Part shown: piece after piece, positions 1-51,498 of the stretch
Layout of the letters: the number at the start of each line of letters is the position of its first letter
Position numbering within the stretch: the stretch's first letter is position 1
From: Isosphaera pallida ATCC 43644
GTDB taxonomy: Bacteria > Planctomycetota > Planctomycetia > Isosphaerales > Isosphaeraceae
DNA: 64,000 bases
Assembly: GCF_000186345.1 (NCBI RefSeq)
Contig: NC_014962.1
Location: 5,174,450 to 5,238,449 of the forward strand
Direction of reading: 5' to 3'
The notes under the pieces: model-generated
Database searches by the model: none
What the model saw: the letters and a program-made list of their open reading frames with translations, nothing else
Told to the model about the DNA's origin: nothing
Translations under genes and position numbers: made by a program

Positions 1-1427
1 CAGTTGGCGAGGTCGTTGACGTCGCCTCGGTCGCCGAAGTCGGCGATTAGGACCAGCAGGCGTTTCCCCGCCAGATCGACCCGCACAGGTTGGGGCGGGT
101 CGCGTAGCGCCAGGTCGCGTTGAAACACTTCGGTGCGATCCACCAGGACGCGGAAACGGACATGACCATGAGTCACGGGGTTTTCCGGGACGCCGCCGGA
201 GTCGTCGATGCCGATTTCGGCGTGGAACGCCTGATCGTCCGGTTCAACCCGGTAGACCGCGATGGTTCGGGAGCGCATGCCTAAGCCGTGGTCGTAGGCT
301 TGGCCATCGAGGATCAGCGGTCCTCCAGCGGCGTTGCGGTTGAGAAACACGACCGAGGCGGGGTCGGTGGCGGAGTCGCCGAAGTAGTCGGCGAACTGGA
401 CGGCCAGCGGAGTCCGGGCCGTCAGCCATTGGAGGCGGTCGGTTCGGGGTTCGATGCGGACCACGTCGGCGAGGGGAACATTGATCGACGCGCCGAAGCG
501 GGTCCGGGCCAGGATTCGACCTCGAACAATCTTGGAATCGACCACGCCGATCCGAGAACCATCCACCAGGGTGAGGGTCAAAACCATCGCTGGGGGAGGC
601 GGCAGGGGATAATCGACCAGGGCCGGGTCGAAACCGATGGCGCGGATGCCGGTCAGATCGAGTTGGGCGGGTTGGGCGGCGTTGTTGAGTTGGAACCGCA
701 GCGCCCGGTTGGGGCCATCCAGACCCAGTACGCCTCCGGTTTGCCGATCGCCGTTAGTGAACCAGACCGAGTCGCCGCCGGGTTCCATACTGGCTAATAG
801 GTCGAGTTGAGCGAGGGTTTCGGCGACCGTGGTAGGCGGCTGCAGCAGCAGGCCCAACGGAGCTAGCAGCGGGGTGTTGAGGGGGCCGAGCAACCGAGTT
901 TGCAGGATCAGGTTGGTGTCGTCGCCGCCGACTCCCACAATCGCCAGCCGCTCGCCGTCGGGAAAAACCGCCAGGTTCGTCGCAAACGGGGGAATCATTG
1001 GCCTCGGACCCTGGCCTGGTTCGCGTGGCGCGGTGCGGGTGATTCGAACCACCTGGGCGAGAGGCAAGGCAATCCGCGACCCGAGGGCCTTGTCGTCCGC
1101 AACCGCGGCGACTTGAACGGGTTGGGGTTGAGGTTGATCCAGGGGGGGCGTGTTCGGGGACGTTTCGGGATGAGGTGGGGACTCCGGTGGGGGTTCGTCC
1201 AGCAGGAGCAGTAGGGTCGGTTCGGTCATCGCCTTGGCGGCCGGGTCGGAGGGGGCGACCAAGCCCTCTAGGCGTCCCACGCGGACGGTGCCGTCGATGA
1301 AGGTCACGTTGAAAATCGGGTCGGCTTGCTGCGCTTCGGCGGGCGAACCAAGCCCCAACCAACCCCGACCCGTACCAAGGCCGACCAACGCGACGACAAC
1401 CAAACGAGTCCAGAAATGCAAGTTCAT
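1..1427 (-). CDS. Secreted NPCBM/NEW2-domain protein, 3' end cut by window edge
   Basis: The reading frame is open from an ATG at 1427 to the window edge, giving about 475 residues without a stop, so the C-terminus is missing. The first ~35 residues look like a signal peptide: a hydrophobic stretch, then Ala-Glu-Ala before Gln-Gln. A proline-rich linker follows at about residues 75-110. The last ~120 residues read like an NPCBM/NEW2 module, a putative carbohydrate-binding fold: a Leu-Asp-Gly-x-x-Tyr-x-x-Gly-Leu-Gly block near residue 370, and a terminal segment with Val-Asp-Leu-Ala-Gly and Asp-Phe-Gly-Asp-Arg-Gly-Asp. This domain is common in planctomycete secreted proteins. The gene lies 98 nt downstream of the squalene-cyclase-like gene on the same strand and may be the last gene of the MoxR cluster seen in this window. 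Cell-surface binding is inference. Confidence 0.8.
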   Translation of the reverse strand, partial: MNLHFWTRLVVVALVGLGTGRGWLGLGSPAEAQQADPIFNVTFIDGTVRVGRLEGLVAPSDPAAKAMTEPTLLLLLDEPPPESPPHPETSPNTPPLDQPQPQPVQVAAVADDKALGSRIALPLAQVVRITRTAPREPGQGPRPMIPPFATNLAVFPDGERLAIVGVGGDDTNLILQTRLLGPLNTPLLAPLGLLLQPPTTVAETLAQLDLLASMEPGGDSVWFTNGDRQTGGVLGLDGPNRALRFQLNNAAQPAQLDLTGIRAIGFDPALVDYPLPPPPAMVLTLTLVDGSRIGVVDSKIVRGRILARTRFGASINVPLADVVRIEPRTDRLQWLTARTPLAVQFADYFGDSATDPASVVFLNRNAAGGPLILDGQAYDHGLGMRSRTIAVYRVEPDDQAFHAEIGIDDSGGVPENPVTHGHVRFRVLVDRTEVFQRDLALRDPPQPVRVDLAGKRLLVLIADFGDRGDVNDLAN

Positions 1428-3600: not shown

Positions 3601-6600
3601 TTACTGTTCTCCATCGTCACGGATCGGCTTAGTGAGGTCGCGGGCCAGGTCGGCGATGGTTTTCTGTTCCTCCACCAGGCGGCTCGCCTCCCGTTCCTGG
3701 TCGGGCGTTAGCGGGATGCGGCGACGTTGGAGTTCGTCGAGGAGTTCGGTCCGTCTGTTGAGATCCTCTTGAAGCAATTTGAGGAGCTTGAGCTGCGCGA
3801 TGGAGGGCAACCCCTCACCGCCGCCGCCTCCGCCTCCGCCACCTCCTCCCTCGCCGCCGCCTTGTTGTTGGCCGTTGTTGGCTTGGTCGTTACGGATGGC
3901 GTCGCGGAGTTGCTCGAACCGCTTGAGCGCCTGGCGTTCCAGGTCCTGGGTCTCAGCACCGACGTCGGTGGACTTGAGCCGCTGAGCGGCCTCGCTCATG
4001 TTCTCGCCGGCCCGTCGCAGCACCAGGGCCACTACGGGGGCACCGTCGAGACGCTCGGCCAGGTCTAGGGTGTCGGCTTGAATCCCGTCTTGGATGTTGC
4101 CCAGGTTTCGAATCTCGATGGTTTGCCCGCGGGTCAGCTTGCCACCCTTTTCGGTTTTGAGCCGGTCGTAATCGACTGTCTCGGCGATCATCTTCTCTTG
4201 ACGTTCGATCAGAGCTCGAAGCTGATCCCCGATGCGTCCTAGTTGTTCGGCGGCGAGTTGCTCCTCGGCCTCACGGCGGGCCTGTTCCACCTCCTCGCGG
4301 GCCTGTTCGAGGTTGTTGAGGGCGTCCTCCTGGTTTTGCTGGGCGGCTTCGGCGTCGCCCTGGTCGAAATCTTGACGCGCTTGGTCCATGTTTTGGGACG
4401 CACGCGCGCCGGATCGGGCGGCGTTCTCAGCGCGGAGCTTGCTCAGCTTTTGGAGTTGCTTTTTCAGGTCCTCCTGGATGCGTTGCTGTTCCTTGGATAG
4501 CCTCTGAAGCTCTTGGGCACGCTTCTCGGGGTCGGCGAGGTTAGCGGCCTCCTGAGTCCTCCGCAGGTTTTCTCCTTGACGTTGGCGGAGCCGGTCGAGT
4601 TCCGCCTCGGCGTTCTTGAGCTCCTTGACTAGCCGGGAGAGTTCGCGTTCCCGACGATTCTTGAGTTGATCGACCAGATTCTCCAGGTCGGCCTTGGCCT
4701 GATCCTGACCCTGACGCGCCGCCCCCATTTGGTTGCGGCGGAGTTGCTCGGCGGCTTCGGCCATGCGGGCGGCGGTGTTCTGGTCACGCAGACGGTCGGC
4801 GGCTTCCTTGAGCGCTGCGGCGGCCAAGGGGTCCTCGATCTCCATCCGGCGGGCCATTTGATCCATCTTGGCCCGCAGGTCTTCAACATTGCGACCCAGT
4901 TCGTTTTGACGTTCACCCAGGTTGGTGAGGTCGGCGCGTTGTTCCGGAGTCAGTTGCTCGGGGGGTTTGCCTAGAGTATCGGGCCGGGCGGCCGCGTCAA
5001 TCGCCCTCTTGATGGCATCGTTTTGACGATTCAACAAATCTTCCGCGTCCTTGGTGATCGTCCGCATATTCTCGAACTCACCCAGATTGTCAAGCATCTT
5101 CTGGAGTTCGGATTCGATCGCCTTTTGCTGATCGCGGGCCAGGGCCAGCGCCTCAACGCCGGGACGCTCCTCCTCCCGCGCCTGCTGTTCGCCCTGCGGC
5201 TGTTGGTCACCCTGCGGCTGCTGACCACCTTGCGGCTGCTGGCCACCCTGCGGCTGTTGGTCACCCTGCGGCTGCTGGCCACCCTGTGGCTGTTGACCAC
5301 CTTGCGGCTGTTGGTCACCCTGCGGCTGTTGACCACCTTGCGGCTGCTGACCACCTTGCGGCTGCTGACCACCTTGCGGCTGCTGGCCACCCTGTGGCTG
5401 CTGGCCACCCTGCGCCTGCTGACCACCCCGCGCCTGCTGGTCACCCCGCGCCTGCTGGTCACCCTGCGGCTGCTGGCCACCCTGCGGCTGCTGGCCACCC
5501 TGCGGCTGCTGACCACCTTGTGGCTGCTGGCCACCCTGCGGCTGCTGACCACCTTCGAGATTTTTGACAGCGCGGGCGAGGTCTTGTTCGACCTGACCGA
5601 GGTGTTCGGCCTTGAGTCGGTTTAGGCTTTCTTCCAGGGCCAACATTTGATCGCGGGCGTCGGGATTGTTGAGCTTAAGGTTGTTCAGGTCTTCAAGAAA
5701 GCGATCCACCCGACGGTCGAGGCCGTCGATGGGGTTACTCAAACGTCCGTTGACCTGACGTTGGATCATTTCGGCGTTGCGCACGGCGTCGCGTTGGTTT
5801 TGGGGCAGGCGATCGAGTTCTTCGAGGGCGCGCAGGGCCTCGTCTACTGGCAGGGCGGCCTGACGTTGGATGGCCAGGGCGCGTTCGATCTCGTTGCGAA
5901 TTTCCCGCTGGCGGTCGGCCAGGTCGCGGAGGGCCTGTTCGGGAGTAACGATGCGGAGTTGCAGTTTGCGGCTGCGACCGATGTTGGGACCGTCAGGGCT
6001 TTTGAAGTCGGCGGCTTCGGCGTAAAGCGTCAAAACCTGTCCCGGCGCGGGGTTGGTGGCGGCGAGTTCCCAGGTGTAATCGACTTCGCGGTGGGTGATC
6101 GACTGGCGTTGGTCGGGCGGGTCGTTGGGCGAGGGTTCCCAGAGCGGTTTGGCGAGGGCTTCGGTCGGTTCCGAGTTGGTCCCGGCGGTTTCGACCAGGA
6201 GTTTGACGGTGGCCAGGCCGAAGTCGTCGTCGGCGACGATCCGCACCGGGACGGTGGCGTTGGGGGTCACGTCGCGGTCAGCGATGGGTTCCTCAATGAC
6301 CACCCGGGGGGATTCGTCGGGCAGGACGCGAAGTTCGTGACGGGCGGCGTCCTGGTTGGCGAAGCCAAGGGTGTCGGTCAACTCGAACCAGAACGAGGTC
6401 GATCGGGTGATGGGAATGCGAGTGGCCAGGAGTCGGCCTTCTTGGGAGAGGTCCAGGTCGAGGGCAGGAAGAGTTTCGTCCGAGAACCGCAGACGGGCTT
6501 GGGCGACTGGCTTGTTGGCGCGGGCTTGGAGGTCCAGGGTGGTTCCAGCGACAGCGCGGATTTGGGTTTGACCGGCAGGTAGGGTGACGATGGGACGGGC

Positions 6601-47306: not shown

Positions 47307-47714
47307 CGCACCTCCCTCCGGTCGCGCCGGGAAGTTGTTGCGTTCTCCCGACCCGAGCCGTCGCCCCGCTCAACCCGCCGCGCCAATCCCCGCCGCGTCA
47401 TCCCCGCTACGGCGCGGAAGGGTAGAGATGCCTTCGCCGATCGTCAAGTCGAACCGCTGGCGGAACCGTGGTCCCCAGATTGCCAGTTGGTCCACAGCCT
47501 TGGCCTTAACCCCGCCAGCAACGGCCGCTCGCCGCCGAGTCAACCGCTTTCTTGCGAATCGCTCGACTTCGTCCGATTCAATCAGGTCGATTTGGTCGGA
47601 TTTGTCGGTTGGCGAATTGTCGCATTTTTTTTCGAAGGAGTTGTCGAGGGGACTTATGGGCGATAGACTGAAAGCGTCCAATCCGCTCAAACCGTCCACA
47701 GTAAGGTCGTGGCG
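47307..47714. other. Divergent region between recO and MerR/B12 regulator
   Basis: This 408-nt region has an unusual composition near 47586-47632: GTCG-starting 9-mers follow each other (GTCGATTTG, GTCGGATTT, GTCGGTTGG, then after 6 nt GTCGCATTT), leading into a run of eight T. Closer to the gene, a 19-bp sequence at 47676-47694 recurs in the coding region. No gene is supported here. Confidence 0.5.
47676..47694 (+). repeat. 19-bp sequence repeated in promoter and inside regulator gene
   Basis: GTCCAATCCGCTCAAACCG here and GTCCAAACCGCTCAAACCG at 47934-47952 differ at one base. The first copy is about 20 nt before the regulator start, the second lies about 220 nt inside the gene between the DNA-binding and B12-binding parts. 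Paired sites are compatible with autoregulation or looping. Confidence 0.5.
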
Positions 47715-48800
47715 ATGCATCAGGGTGACGTTTCCCTCAAAACACGTCAGGTTGCCCAGGCACTCGGGGTCAGCGCCAGCACGGTGAAGCGCTGGGTGAC
47801 CGAGGGGAAGCTGCCGGCGGCCCGCACGGTGGGGAATCACCGTCTGATCGCTTTGAGCGACGCGATTGCGTTTGCGCGCAATCAAGGGATGAACCTCACG
47901 CAACTGGAGGCATTGGCCGAATCGTACCGAAGTGTCCAAACCGCTCAAACCGATCGATCGAACGGCCATTCCGGGTCGGTGGTGGTTCCGCCGCCGTCCT
48001 CGTGGAGGGGGGGCTTTTCGACATCTTTGTCGCGTTCTGAGGTGGCGTCCGACGTGAGGGCAGTGGCCGGGTCCGGGTCGGGTTCGGGCGTGACCCTCGA
48101 CGATTGCGATGAACTGTTTCGCGTGCTGATCGCTGGTCAGTCGCAGGAGGCTCGCGATCTGGTGTTGAGGCTGCATGATCACACGCGCAACGCGGCAACC
48201 TTGACCGAGCAGCTGATCGAACCGGTGATGCGACACATTGGCGACGAGTGGCAGCGTGGCGCGTTGGGGATCGACCAGGAGCATTTAGCCTCTCACATCA
48301 TGTGTGGGATTATCTCGGAGTTGATTCGCCGGGTTCAGACAGATCGTGCGTTCGCCCACTCCGCGACCCACGCGGCCCCGCGTCCTCTGGCGTTGGGTGC
48401 CACCCCGGAAAACGATTGGTCCACGCTGCCCAACCTGATTTGTGAGTTGGCGTTGCTCGAACAGGGTTGGGAGGTGGTCAACCTGGGCTGCAACCTGCCG
48501 ATCGATTCGTTGGTCCGCGCCGCTCGCCGCGAGCGTCCCAACTTGGTCTGGCTGTCGGCGAGCCACTTGAAGGATCCTTTGGGGTTCATCAAGGGAATCA
48601 TCCGCCTGGGTGAACATCTTAAGGCCCAAAACGCCCACTTGATTGTCGGAGGTCGCGCGGTCACCAGCGAGATTCGCTCGAAGCTAGTCAGCGACCTCAC
48701 CAGCGACCTGGGGGAGACGGTGAGGGTGGGACATTCGATGACCGACTTGGTTCAGTCGGCCCGCGAGCTTCAGAGCGATCCGACTTGGCGGACCGCTTGA
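47715..48800 (+). CDS. MerR-type regulator with cobalamin-binding domain (CarH/LitR-like)
   Basis: I prefer the ATG at 47715 (AAGG 8 nt upstream) over the GTG at 47709. The 361-residue product has an N-terminal MerR/excisionase winged helix (about residues 8-55), a low-complexity linker (75-125), a four-helix region with the CarH signature Trp179-x9-Glu189-His190, and a Rossmann-type B12-binding domain (about 225-350). In CarH proteins the cobalamin lower ligand comes from Asp-x-His-x-x-Gly; here the aligned segment is Asp234-Trp-Ser236-Thr-Leu-Pro239, so the His is missing. Known relatives repress carotenoid genes in the dark and are released by light. A sigma factor gene follows on the same strand after 166 nt. 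Confidence 0.88.
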   Translation: MHQGDVSLKTRQVAQALGVSASTVKRWVTEGKLPAARTVGNHRLIALSDAIAFARNQGMNLTQLEALAESYRSVQTAQTDRSNGHSGSVVVPPPSSWRGGFSTSLSRSEVASDVRAVAGSGSGSGVTLDDCDELFRVLIAGQSQEARDLVLRLHDHTRNAATLTEQLIEPVMRHIGDEWQRGALGIDQEHLASHIMCGIISELIRRVQTDRAFAHSATHAAPRPLALGATPENDWSTLPNLICELALLEQGWEVVNLGCNLPIDSLVRAARRERPNLVWLSASHLKDPLGFIKGIIRLGEHLKAQNAHLIVGGRAVTSEIRSKLVSDLTSDLGETVRVGHSMTDLVQSARELQSDPTWRTA

Positions 48801-48966: not shown

Positions 48967-49935
48967 ATGCGTTCGGTTCGACAGAACGGCGAGATCGACG
49001 GAATGGCTTCCTTGGCCGCCTTCGAAACCAAAGTCCTGGAGCCGGCCGAGGAAAAAGCGCTGCTCCGGGAACTGGCGCAGTGCAAATCCCAACTGGCCCA
49101 GGCACTGGCCAAAGCTCCCGGCTCGCAAATGCCCGCCGACGATCCCCAAGCGCTGGCCAACTACATCGCTCGGGAGCTTTCGGAAGACAGCCTGATGCAG
49201 GCGGAACTCGGCGCGGTCTACTACAAATATGTCGAACTGCGCTCTAAGCTCGCGCTGGCCAACATGAGGCTGGTGGCCCACGTCGCCAAGCGGTTCCGCG
49301 ATCGCGGAGTCTCCTACTCCGACCTGCTGCAGGAAGGCTTCTGCGGTCTTTTGGAGGCGATCGACCGATTCGACTTGGCTCATGGCACCAAGCTGGCCAC
49401 CTACGCGACCTGGTGGATCCGTCAAGCTATGCAACGCGCTGTGGCCGCCACCGCCTACCCGGTTCGGCTCAGCCCCCGCCACCTCCGCCAACTGGCCCGC
49501 AACCAGGAGGAGATTGAACGCGGCGGCCAACCGCGGACCCGCAAGAAAGCCTCCGACGAAGAGTCGGTCTCGCCCGAGATGATCCAACGCATTCACGCCG
49601 CCACCCGTCCCACCGTCTCGCTCGACGCCACGGTGGATTCCGACAGCTCCTTCAGCCTGCTGCACACCATGTCCGACCCTGAAGGCGACCGCACCGGCGA
49701 AGTGGACATGGACGAAACGATCGTCAAGCTGATGGAAAATCTGCGTCCCCGCGAAATCCAGGTGTTGTCGTTGCGGTTCGGCCTCAACGGCGCGACCCGT
49801 CACTCGCTCTCCCAGGTCGGCAAGGTGCTGGATGTGTCCAAGGAGCGGGTTCGTCAGATTCAAGACCGTGCTTTGGAGAAGCTGCGACTCTGCGTGCAGG
49901 AAACCAGTTTGGCCGAGACGTTGATTCCTAGCTGA
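48967..49935 (+). CDS. Sigma-70 family RNA polymerase sigma factor
   Basis: The 322-residue protein has region 2 at about residues 88-165, with Asp-Leu-Leu-Gln-Glu-Gly-Phe-Cys-Gly-Leu for core binding and Tyr-Ala-Thr-Trp-Trp-Ile-Arg-Gln-Ala-Met for the -10 element. Region 4 is at about 255-310, with Val-Ser-Lys-Glu-Arg-Val-Arg-Gln-Ile as the helix-turn-helix. Region 3 is reduced and replaced by a charged linker (about 180-250). The N-terminus lacks the long region 1.1 of a primary sigma. It is therefore an alternative (group 2/3) sigma. AAGGGA precedes the ATG. A strong terminator follows. It is downstream of a CarH/LitR-like gene, and light-responsive MerR/sigma pairs are known in other phyla. 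Confidence 0.92.
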   Translation: MRSVRQNGEIDGMASLAAFETKVLEPAEEKALLRELAQCKSQLAQALAKAPGSQMPADDPQALANYIARELSEDSLMQAELGAVYYKYVELRSKLALANMRLVAHVAKRFRDRGVSYSDLLQEGFCGLLEAIDRFDLAHGTKLATYATWWIRQAMQRAVAATAYPVRLSPRHLRQLARNQEEIERGGQPRTRKKASDEESVSPEMIQRIHAATRPTVSLDATVDSDSSFSLLHTMSDPEGDRTGEVDMDETIVKLMENLRPREIQVLSLRFGLNGATRHSLSQVGKVLDVSKERVRQIQDRALEKLRLCVQETSLAETLIPS

Positions 49936-50040: not shown

Positions 50041-50106
50041 CCGCGTCCGCCCCGACTCATCCGTCCCCCGACGGAGGCAGCCGAGGCGGACGCGGTTTGC
50101 TTTAGG
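50041..50106 (+). terminator. Rho-independent-type terminator of the sigma gene
   Basis: CCGCGTCCGCC pairs perfectly with GGCGGACGCGG (11 bp) around an inner CCGTC/GACGG stem, and a T-rich run (TTTGCTTTAGG) follows. It lies about 105 nt after the sigma stop and separates that gene from MoxR cluster 2. Confidence 0.72.
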
Positions 50107-50150
50107 TTTGGATTGCGAGGTGGTCCCGCCCCGCCGTAGCCCGCGCCGAC

Positions 50151-50400
50151 GACGATCGTCTGAGACAGCTCATCGAACTTCCAATCACCCCCTTGCGTGG
50201 TCGCCCTGGCTCGTTTACGATCGCCCGAGGACATGCGACAGACGTTGGCGGCATGACCTTGAATGGAATTTCAGGTTGCCCTCTTGACACGGGTGTCGCG
50301 CTTCATTTACGATCGTCTGAAAGCGTCGGCGGCGTCGCGTTAGGATTCCAAATGATTCTCTTGCGTGGTCGCTGCGGCCTGCTTTGACGATCGTCTGAGA
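50151..50400 (+). promoter_or_regulatory. Four-copy degenerate promoter/operator array
   Basis: The palindrome GACGATCGTC occurs at 50151-50160 and 50386-50395, with close variants TACGATCGCC at 50216-50225 and TACGATCGTC at 50308-50317. Upstream of three copies are -35-like boxes: TTGCGT at 50193 (17 nt before TACGAT), TTGACA at 50284 (18 nt before TACGAT) and TTGCGT at 50361 (18-19 nt before TGACGA/GACGAT). The second and fourth copies also share CTTGCGTGGTCGC. The last copy is about 45 nt before the moxR start. This looks like duplicated promoters whose -10 boxes overlap an operator. Confidence 0.6.
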
Positions 50401-50439
50401 ACGTCCGAGATTTTTCATTGGAACCAGGCGAGGTGAGGA

Positions 50440-51498
50440 ATGGCCGAGGCAACCCAGGGTGGTTCGAGCCGCGCGGCGTCTCCCGAGACGACCCGGTTCA
50501 TTCAAGCGATCCGCGACCGGGTAGGGACGGTGGTGGTTGGTCAGGAGGTGGTCGTCGAGCGCATCTTAATCGCTCTGTTCACGGGGGGTCACCTGCTGTT
50601 GCAGGGGGTGCCCGGCCTGGCTAAGACCCTGCTGGTCTCGACCCTCTCCAAAACGATCGACCTGGGATTCAACCGCATCCAATTCACTGTGGACCTGCTG
50701 CCTTCGGACATTCTGGGGGCGGAGATTCTCGACCCCCGGACCAACGAGTTCCGGGTTCACCGGGGGCCGGTCTTCACCAACCTACTGCTGGCCGACGAGA
50801 TCAACCGCGCTGCTCCCAAGGTGCAATCAGCGCTTCTGGAGGCGATGCAGGAGCGTAAGGTGACCATCGGCGGGGTCAACTTCAAACTGCCCACCCCGTT
50901 CCTGGTCATCGCTACCCAAAACCCGATCGAGCAATCCGGCACCTTCGAGCTTCCCGAAGCGCAGCTCGACCGCTTCATGCTCTGCCATCGGCTGACCTAT
51001 CCTCACACCGACGACGAAAAAGAGATGCTCAAGCGTCACCTTCGCTTGGGGGTGCGCCGCGAGGACAACGGGGCCGTGGCCCGCACCGAGTTCGACGTGT
51101 TGGACCATGAGCCGGTGGGCGGCACCGAGGATCTCATCCAGGCGATGGAGGCGGTCCACGAGGTCCACGTCTCCGACGCCTTTGTGGATCACGTCATGGA
51201 GGTGGTGGACCGGACCCGCCGCCACCCCAGCCTGGAACTAGGGGCCTCCCCCCGCGCCGGCATCGCGTTGCTCAAGGCGTCCCGCGCACGGGCGCTGATC
51301 CAGGGACGACGCTACGTCATCCCCGAAGACCTGTTCGCGCTGGCCGAAGACGTGCTGTTGCACCGCATCCGCTTGACCTACGAAGCCTTGGCCGACGGTC
51401 TGACTGGCGGCGGCGTCCTACGCGACCTGTTGGGACGCCTAGGCGCGCCGCTCAACGGCGTGCGTGTCAATTCCTCCGTTTCGCTCGCGCGCTCCTGA
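50440..51498 (+). CDS. MoxR-family AAA+ ATPase (cluster 2)
   Basis: The 352-residue protein has Walker A Gly-Val-Pro-Gly-Leu-Ala-Lys-Thr at 56-63, Walker B ending Leu-Ala-Asp-Glu at 117-120, the Ala-Thr-Gln-Asn-Pro-Ile-Glu sensor and the Leu-Pro-Glu-Ala-Gln-Leu-Asp-Arg-Phe segment. It resembles the cluster 1 MoxR at 13993 but differs in its N- and C-terminal parts, so the two are paralogues, not a recent duplicate. AGGTGAGGA stands directly before the ATG. DUF58 and VWA genes follow as in Bat operons. The repeated promoter-like array upstream suggests it is the first gene of the operon. Confidence 0.93.
   Translation: MAEATQGGSSRAASPETTRFIQAIRDRVGTVVVGQEVVVERILIALFTGGHLLLQGVPGLAKTLLVSTLSKTIDLGFNRIQFTVDLLPSDILGAEILDPRTNEFRVHRGPVFTNLLLADEINRAAPKVQSALLEAMQERKVTIGGVNFKLPTPFLVIATQNPIEQSGTFELPEAQLDRFMLCHRLTYPHTDDEKEMLKRHLRLGVRREDNGAVARTEFDVLDHEPVGGTEDLIQAMEAVHEVHVSDAFVDHVMEVVDRTRRHPSLELGASPRAGIALLKASRARALIQGRRYVIPEDLFALAEDVLLHRIRLTYEALADGLTGGGVLRDLLGRLGAPLNGVRVNSSVSLARS

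Follow-up and report, generated by a model that had tools for sequence, protein, structure and literature searches.

Isosphaera pallida is a hot-spring bacterium. Its genome, as analyzed here, comprises 5,529,304 bases in two contigs, and that of strain IS1B has been described as a chromosome of 5,472,964 bp and a plasmid of 56,340 bp (PMC3072084). The window, which is the whole 64,000-nucleotide stretch of DNA under study, covers positions 5,174,450-5,238,449 of the 5,472,964-base contig. Along the locus, a gene with MerR and B12 domains is followed by a sigma-70-family gene, a terminator-like hairpin, an array of four related sites (P0 to P3), and a moxR cluster:

47709-48800: MerR/B12-domain gene, 5' of the array
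48967-49935: sigma-70-family gene, 5' of the array and directly before the hairpin
50041-50095, + strand: terminator-like hairpin 3' of the sigma-factor gene, with arms at 50041-50057 and 50079-50095, then TTTGCTTTAGG
50151-50165, + strand: P0, GACGATCGTCTGAGA, a 15-nt exact match to P3, with GACGAT and no consensus -10
50193-50221, + strand: P1, TTGCGT-17-TACGAT, a weak sigma-70-type promoter candidate with a degraded palindrome (TACGATCGCC)
50284-50317, + strand: P2, TTGACA-18-TACGAT, 10/12 consensus letters, the best promoter candidate, running into CGTC
50361-50395, + strand: P3, TTGCGT-19-GACGAT with the perfect palindrome GACGATCGTC, a putative weak or decayed promoter, closest to the gene
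50440-51498, + strand: moxR-type AAA ATPase gene (AAA_3, AAA_lid_2), the first gene of the cluster

The intergenic region that holds the array measures 505 nt. The inverted-repeat arms of the hairpin are 88% complementary, and the segment 50030-50115 folds with an energy of -42.7 kcal/mol (z -4.2) that none of 200 shuffles reaches. The tail of the hairpin is T-rich and imperfect, and a simple automatic terminator scan of the region reported no terminator, thereby missing this one. On the other side, a Shine-Dalgarno-like GAGGTGAGGA lies just 5' of the moxR ATG at 50440, and after moxR come a DUF58 gene, one with no Pfam match, and then two VWA genes. Located between the terminator-like hairpin and the start of moxR, the array thus occupies the expected place for promoters of the moxR cluster. 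Just before moxR, the stretch CGAGATTTTTCATTGGAAC (50408-50426) resembles by eye GGAATTTTTCACTGGAATC and GGATTTTTTCACTTGCG, found 5' of moxR in two relatives (loci L102 and L099, respectively), and stretches of this type are possibly the remnant of an ancestral promoter.

The MerR-like and sigma genes form a conserved pair, adjacent at 28 of the 29 sigma loci examined in the family. The MerR/B12-domain regulator is weakly CarH-like (51 bits, for a cut-off of 400). The cobalamin motif reads DxHxxG; inspection by eye, not an alignment, places ENDWSTLP at this position of the regulator, and its sequence suggests that it may have lost B12 ligation. Neither gene is found in the flanks of 11 loci of moxR relatives (1.5 kb flanks for nine of them, longer ones for two), and a conserved partnership of the neighbouring regulators with the moxR cluster was therefore rejected; likewise, their adjacency to the array is no evidence that they act there. 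In 9/9 close-group genomes of the family, mostly drafts and inspected by eye, the match to the sigma factor is either on another contig than the moxR orthologue or >600 kb away from it.

An earlier note on this DNA had described four palindrome-related sites spaced by 65, 92, and 78 nt, three of them preceded by -35-like boxes at 17-19 nt, and the positions and distances are as it claimed. The sites start at 50151, 50216, 50308, and 50386. The sequence GACGATCGTC occupies 50151-50160 and 50386-50395, TACGATCGTC occupies 50308-50317, and TACGATCGCC occupies 50216-50225, this second copy (P1) having its palindrome reduced to ACGATCG. The palindrome is hence not kept in every boxed copy, as its core is broken in P1, which retains TTTACGAT without it. 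Boxes of -35 type are found at 50193 (TTGCGT, spacer 17), 50284 (TTGACA, spacer 18), and 50361 (TTGCGT, spacer 19). By eye, no such box is present 16-19 nt 5' of 50151, and P0 is probably a decayed or partial copy. Among the three copies with a -35-like box, P1 and P2 have a TANNNT -10 box, and P3 has none.

The form of sigma-70 promoters in this genome was read from a 464-kb sample, made of 20 stretches of 20 kb (L215-L234) and the window, that contains 290 genes and is 80% coding, the genes being called by a simple codon-usage caller with approximate starts. After upstream regions of less than 70 nt were dropped, 235 regions remained without the array and 236 with it. In the 235 regions, the TTGNNN-N-TANNNT motif peaks at spacers of 17 nt (27 sites, for a shuffle mean of 2.7) and 18 nt (18 sites, for a shuffle mean of 2.9), which amounts to a 6- to 10-fold enrichment; one of the spacer-18 sites spans the joint between two regions, leaving 17 genuine ones and 44 real sites in all. 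The remaining spacers from 10 to 25 nt return 1 to 9 sites each. Read on the opposite strand, these regions return 11 (spacer 17) and 9 (spacer 18), some of which may be divergent promoters. P1 (17) and P2 (18) carry exactly the peak spacers of the genome and possess the sigma-70 form, TTGNNN and TANNNT separated by 16-18 nt. P0 and P3 depart from it, both through GACGAT, P3 through its spacer of 19 nt as well, and P0 through the lack of any visible -35 box. Matches with spacers of 16-18 nt are absent from 186 of the 236 upstream regions, single in 47, and double in three; the array is one of these three, and in one of the three the matches overlap.

A consensus scan of the region with a 9-of-12 threshold reports P2 only (10/12, for a shuffle mean of 0.0). 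Compared with the box letters of the 44 genome sites, P2 scores at or above 34 of them, and P1 at or above only 2. The hexamer TACGAT is not enriched in the 235 upstream regions (three occurrences on the gene strand and nine on the opposite strand, for 5.0 in shuffles), and it is used by none of the 52 TTG-16..18-TANNNT matches in the joined upstream text. Counted over both strands, TACGAT does exhibit a twofold excess in non-coding DNA (0.26 vs 0.13 per kb), which is no evidence for promoters, since upstream-strand enrichment is missing. Its threefold higher count on the strand opposite the gene involves small numbers. Form and spacing of the array favor promoters, its -10 hexamer gives them no special support, and P2 is the sole strong copy.

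The region is a degenerate tandem duplication whose copies are homologous beyond the two boxes. Self-alignment of 50101-50439 yields a best score of 35, for a shuffle mean of 17.9 and a maximum of 29, so that none of 200 shuffles attains it. Local alignment of the copies in pairs, using segments of 65-71 nt and 500 shuffles for each pair, indicates that P1 and P3 can be aligned over about 60 nt, -35 and -10 parts included, and that P2-P3, P0-P3, and P0-P2 are alike around the palindrome, with 0/500 shuffles as good for any of these four pairs. The similarity of P1 and P2 is equalled by 1/500 shuffles. That of P0 and P1 alone is not significant (82/500), which counts against a duplication of promoters. 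The longest exact block, GACGATCGTCTGAGA, is common to P0 and P3, located 235 bp apart and both without a TANNNT box; it argues against a promoter-only reading, as it should have drifted if only the promoter mattered.

Among the 223 of 236 upstream regions that remained once those shorter than 100 nt were dropped, the array ranks fourth in self-similarity, and the existence of three regions with stronger internal repeats also counts against a duplication of promoters. By eye, these three contain repeats of other kinds, with no obvious function. In L222, 338 nt upstream of the predicted gene at 5534 (+ strand), two 43-nt direct repeats beginning CCTCTCGA exceed the array. A dispersed repeat or mobile element was rejected, the best DNA match within the organism's own genome outside the array having an E-value of 0.11, with no match in plasmids.

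The repeats were also compared with chance. With 181 copies in 5.53 Mb, ACGATCGT is expected 0.017 times in the 505-nt intergenic region and is found three times, an event with a Poisson probability of ~0.008 after multiplication by the number of such stretches in the genome. With at most one mismatch, TACGATCGTCTGA has six matches in the genome, three of which are in the array, for none with the reversed-pattern control. The two exact genome copies of TTGCGTGGTCGC are both in the array, and at one mismatch this sequence drops to the control level (57 matches vs 68 for the control). Within the window, the palindrome at one mismatch returns 15 matches for 4.7 in shuffles, an excess that stems partly from CGATCG being common overall (98 copies in the window).

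The earlier note had further suggested that the -10 boxes overlap an operator, and had proposed the frequency of the palindrome in coding and promoter DNA as a check. This check runs against the operator. In the 464-kb sample, ACGATCGT is observed 16 times for 16.1 expected from a maximal-order Markov estimate, and 12 of the 13 copies outside the array lie in predicted coding DNA and one in non-coding DNA (0.032 vs 0.011 per kb). The genome contains 18 copies of GACGATCGTC (reversed-pattern control, 0), two in the array and 16 elsewhere; of the 15 of these 16 that were scored, 11 score as coding and four do not, one of the four spanning the stop codon of a predicted gene. Compared with the 80% coding share of the sample, this ratio indicates no clear preference, the coding score itself passing 438/507 random coding and 8/123 random non-coding places. 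The first 29 of the 181 ACGATCGT sites all lie in open frames of at least 255 codons, a weak test in GC-rich DNA, as the tested copies of the array itself lie in frames of 441, 117, and 117 codons. From the coding and non-coding counts, a genome-wide operator was rejected. An operator shared with the MoxR-type paralogues of I. pallida was likewise rejected, ACGATCGT being found in 0/7 of their 600-nt upstream stretches.

MoxR-type matches are present in 45/45 genomes of the family, and a close group (75-81% identity) is represented in 9 of the 44 others. The upstream sequences of the nine close-group loci and of six further loci chosen from a set of 80, about 430 nt each, were compared with the array; L017/L097 and L022/L098 look identical by eye, which leaves 13 distinct sequences among these 15 loci. 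An operator conserved upstream of moxR orthologues was rejected, since ACGATCGT occurs in 0/15 loci. Two TTG-16..18-TANNNT matches are found upstream of none of the 15 moxR relatives, and a single match upstream of four. When 50100-50440 is compared with the 44 other family genomes, scoring at most 16 candidates per genome, short and weak matches emerge in 11 genomes (E 3.6e-4 to 0.009); of these 17 matches, 15 fall in GC-rich sequence between 50115 and 50180, and the other two between 50310 and 50344. From these comparisons, which include one genome of the genus, the array appears to be lineage-specific and specific to Isosphaera.

With moderate confidence, we interpret the array as the product of tandem duplication: a promoter segment of sigma-70 type, serving the moxR-DUF58-VWA cluster, would have been copied locally and in this lineage only, in units of some 65-92 bp within the intergenic region. 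We infer duplication rather than convergence, and transcription from each copy. P2 would act as the main promoter, with P1 as a weaker promoter of like form; P3 would be weak or decayed, and P0 a copy without -35 box. RNA polymerase carrying a housekeeping-type sigma factor would initiate at about 50320, with weaker initiation at about 50229 and perhaps some at about 50399, and the predicted leaders, of about 120, 210, and 40 nt, respectively, would feed the same moxR cluster. The palindrome would mainly represent the -10 hexamer (TACGAT or GACGAT) and the copied CGTCTGA, and it is probably incidental to the -10 box and the flank duplicated with it. The homology of the copies, the peak spacers, the rare double match, the consensus score of P2, the separation by the hairpin, and the non-conservation were all counted in favor of a duplicated promoter segment, and the low letter score of P1 and the lack of TACGAT enrichment were counted against it. 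Regarding the duplicated promoters of the earlier note, the claim survives in part: the copies are homologous, P2 is good, and P1 has the form and the spacing, but the letters of P1 score low and P3 does not possess TANNNT.

It is possible, though rather unlikely, that the array is a relic of local tandem duplication, with P2 as the only working promoter and no regulatory role for the other copies. P2 alone is retrieved by the 9-of-12 scan, P1 has poorly scoring letters, the array is not conserved, and the stronger repeats of three among 223 upstream regions have no obvious function. However, P1 too displays a preferred spacer and TANNNT, and its likeness to P3 spans the -35 and -10 parts. It is highly improbable that the array encodes a structured or attenuating leader RNA whose self-complementary palindrome copies would pair with each other. 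The palindrome stretches do engage in long-range pairs in the predicted fold of 50230-50445, but the energy of this fold is ordinary (z -0.99, with 30/200 shuffles folding as well), and the sole Rfam match at E<=1, mir-4436 (E 0.14, 20.3 bits for a gathering score of 74), lies on the opposite strand of the terminator-like hairpin. Both a structured leader, with this z-score, and a known RNA family, with no Rfam match near its gathering score, were rejected.

An operator formed by the palindrome and its TGAGA tail, at which a dedicated one-locus regulator would occupy two to four sites overlapping -10 to +1 and repress several starts together, is unlikely. Its best argument is the P0/P3 block, the longest exact one, which comprises a perfect palindrome plus TGAGA and neither TANNNT nor a -10 consensus, and to which the only counter is recent copying. 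In addition, ACGATCGTCTGA, taken with one flanking base, hardly occurs outside the array locus (3/6 genome matches at <=1 mismatch are in it). Several observations argue against such an operator: P1 no longer has the core (TACGATCGCC), the genome contains 181 copies of ACGATCGT, which is not commoner in non-coding DNA (12 coding and 1 non-coding of 13), 11/15 of the GACGATCGTC copies elsewhere score as coding, ACGATCGT is present upstream of 0/15 moxR relatives and 0/7 of the organism's own paralogues, and duplicated copies would look alike without any binding. The broken core of P1, the missing preference for non-coding DNA, and the absence upstream of the 15 moxR relatives thus speak against the proposed overlap of -10 boxes with an operator. 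An operator dedicated to one locus would stay invisible in genome-wide counts, and one used at the array locus only is given a low probability. Similarly low is that of a multi-site GACGATCGTCTGAGA operator array, its sites multiplied with the promoters by duplication, through which a dedicated regulator, possibly the neighbouring MerR/B12-domain or sigma product, would silence all tandem promoters of the moxR cluster.

In cyanobacteria, HIP1-like octamers occur around CGATCG. Palindromes with this core are frequent in I. pallida too (568 in the 464-kb sample), but, unlike HIP1, ACGATCGT is at its expected frequency, and thus the array does not belong to a signal spread over the genome. Tandem sigma-70 promoters are known from rrn P1/P2 and from E. 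coli carAB. Such cases have been described for mycobacterial rrn (PMC10218544) and in a review covering carAB (PMC6245113). As in these systems, several sigma-70-type promoter candidates stand in line before one unit at the I. pallida locus; in contrast to them, the candidates are visible copies of one segment, only one of them is strong, and their starts are predicted. Type II toxin-antitoxin operons exhibit palindromic operators that overlap promoters (PMC7730913), similar to the palindrome of the array overlapping the -10 region. However, the array palindrome is a putative operator, shows no clear promoter preference, and has lost its core in P1.

Searches of the literature retrieved nothing recognisable on planctomycete promoters or start-site maps, and no report on tandem promoters with MoxR or on MoxR-DUF58 in Gemmata. 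The peak of TTG-17/18-TANNNT shows that the rules of sigma-70 promoters are directly legible in the genome of Isosphaera pallida. The array at the moxR cluster, otherwise ordinary, would be a natural case of promoter multiplication.
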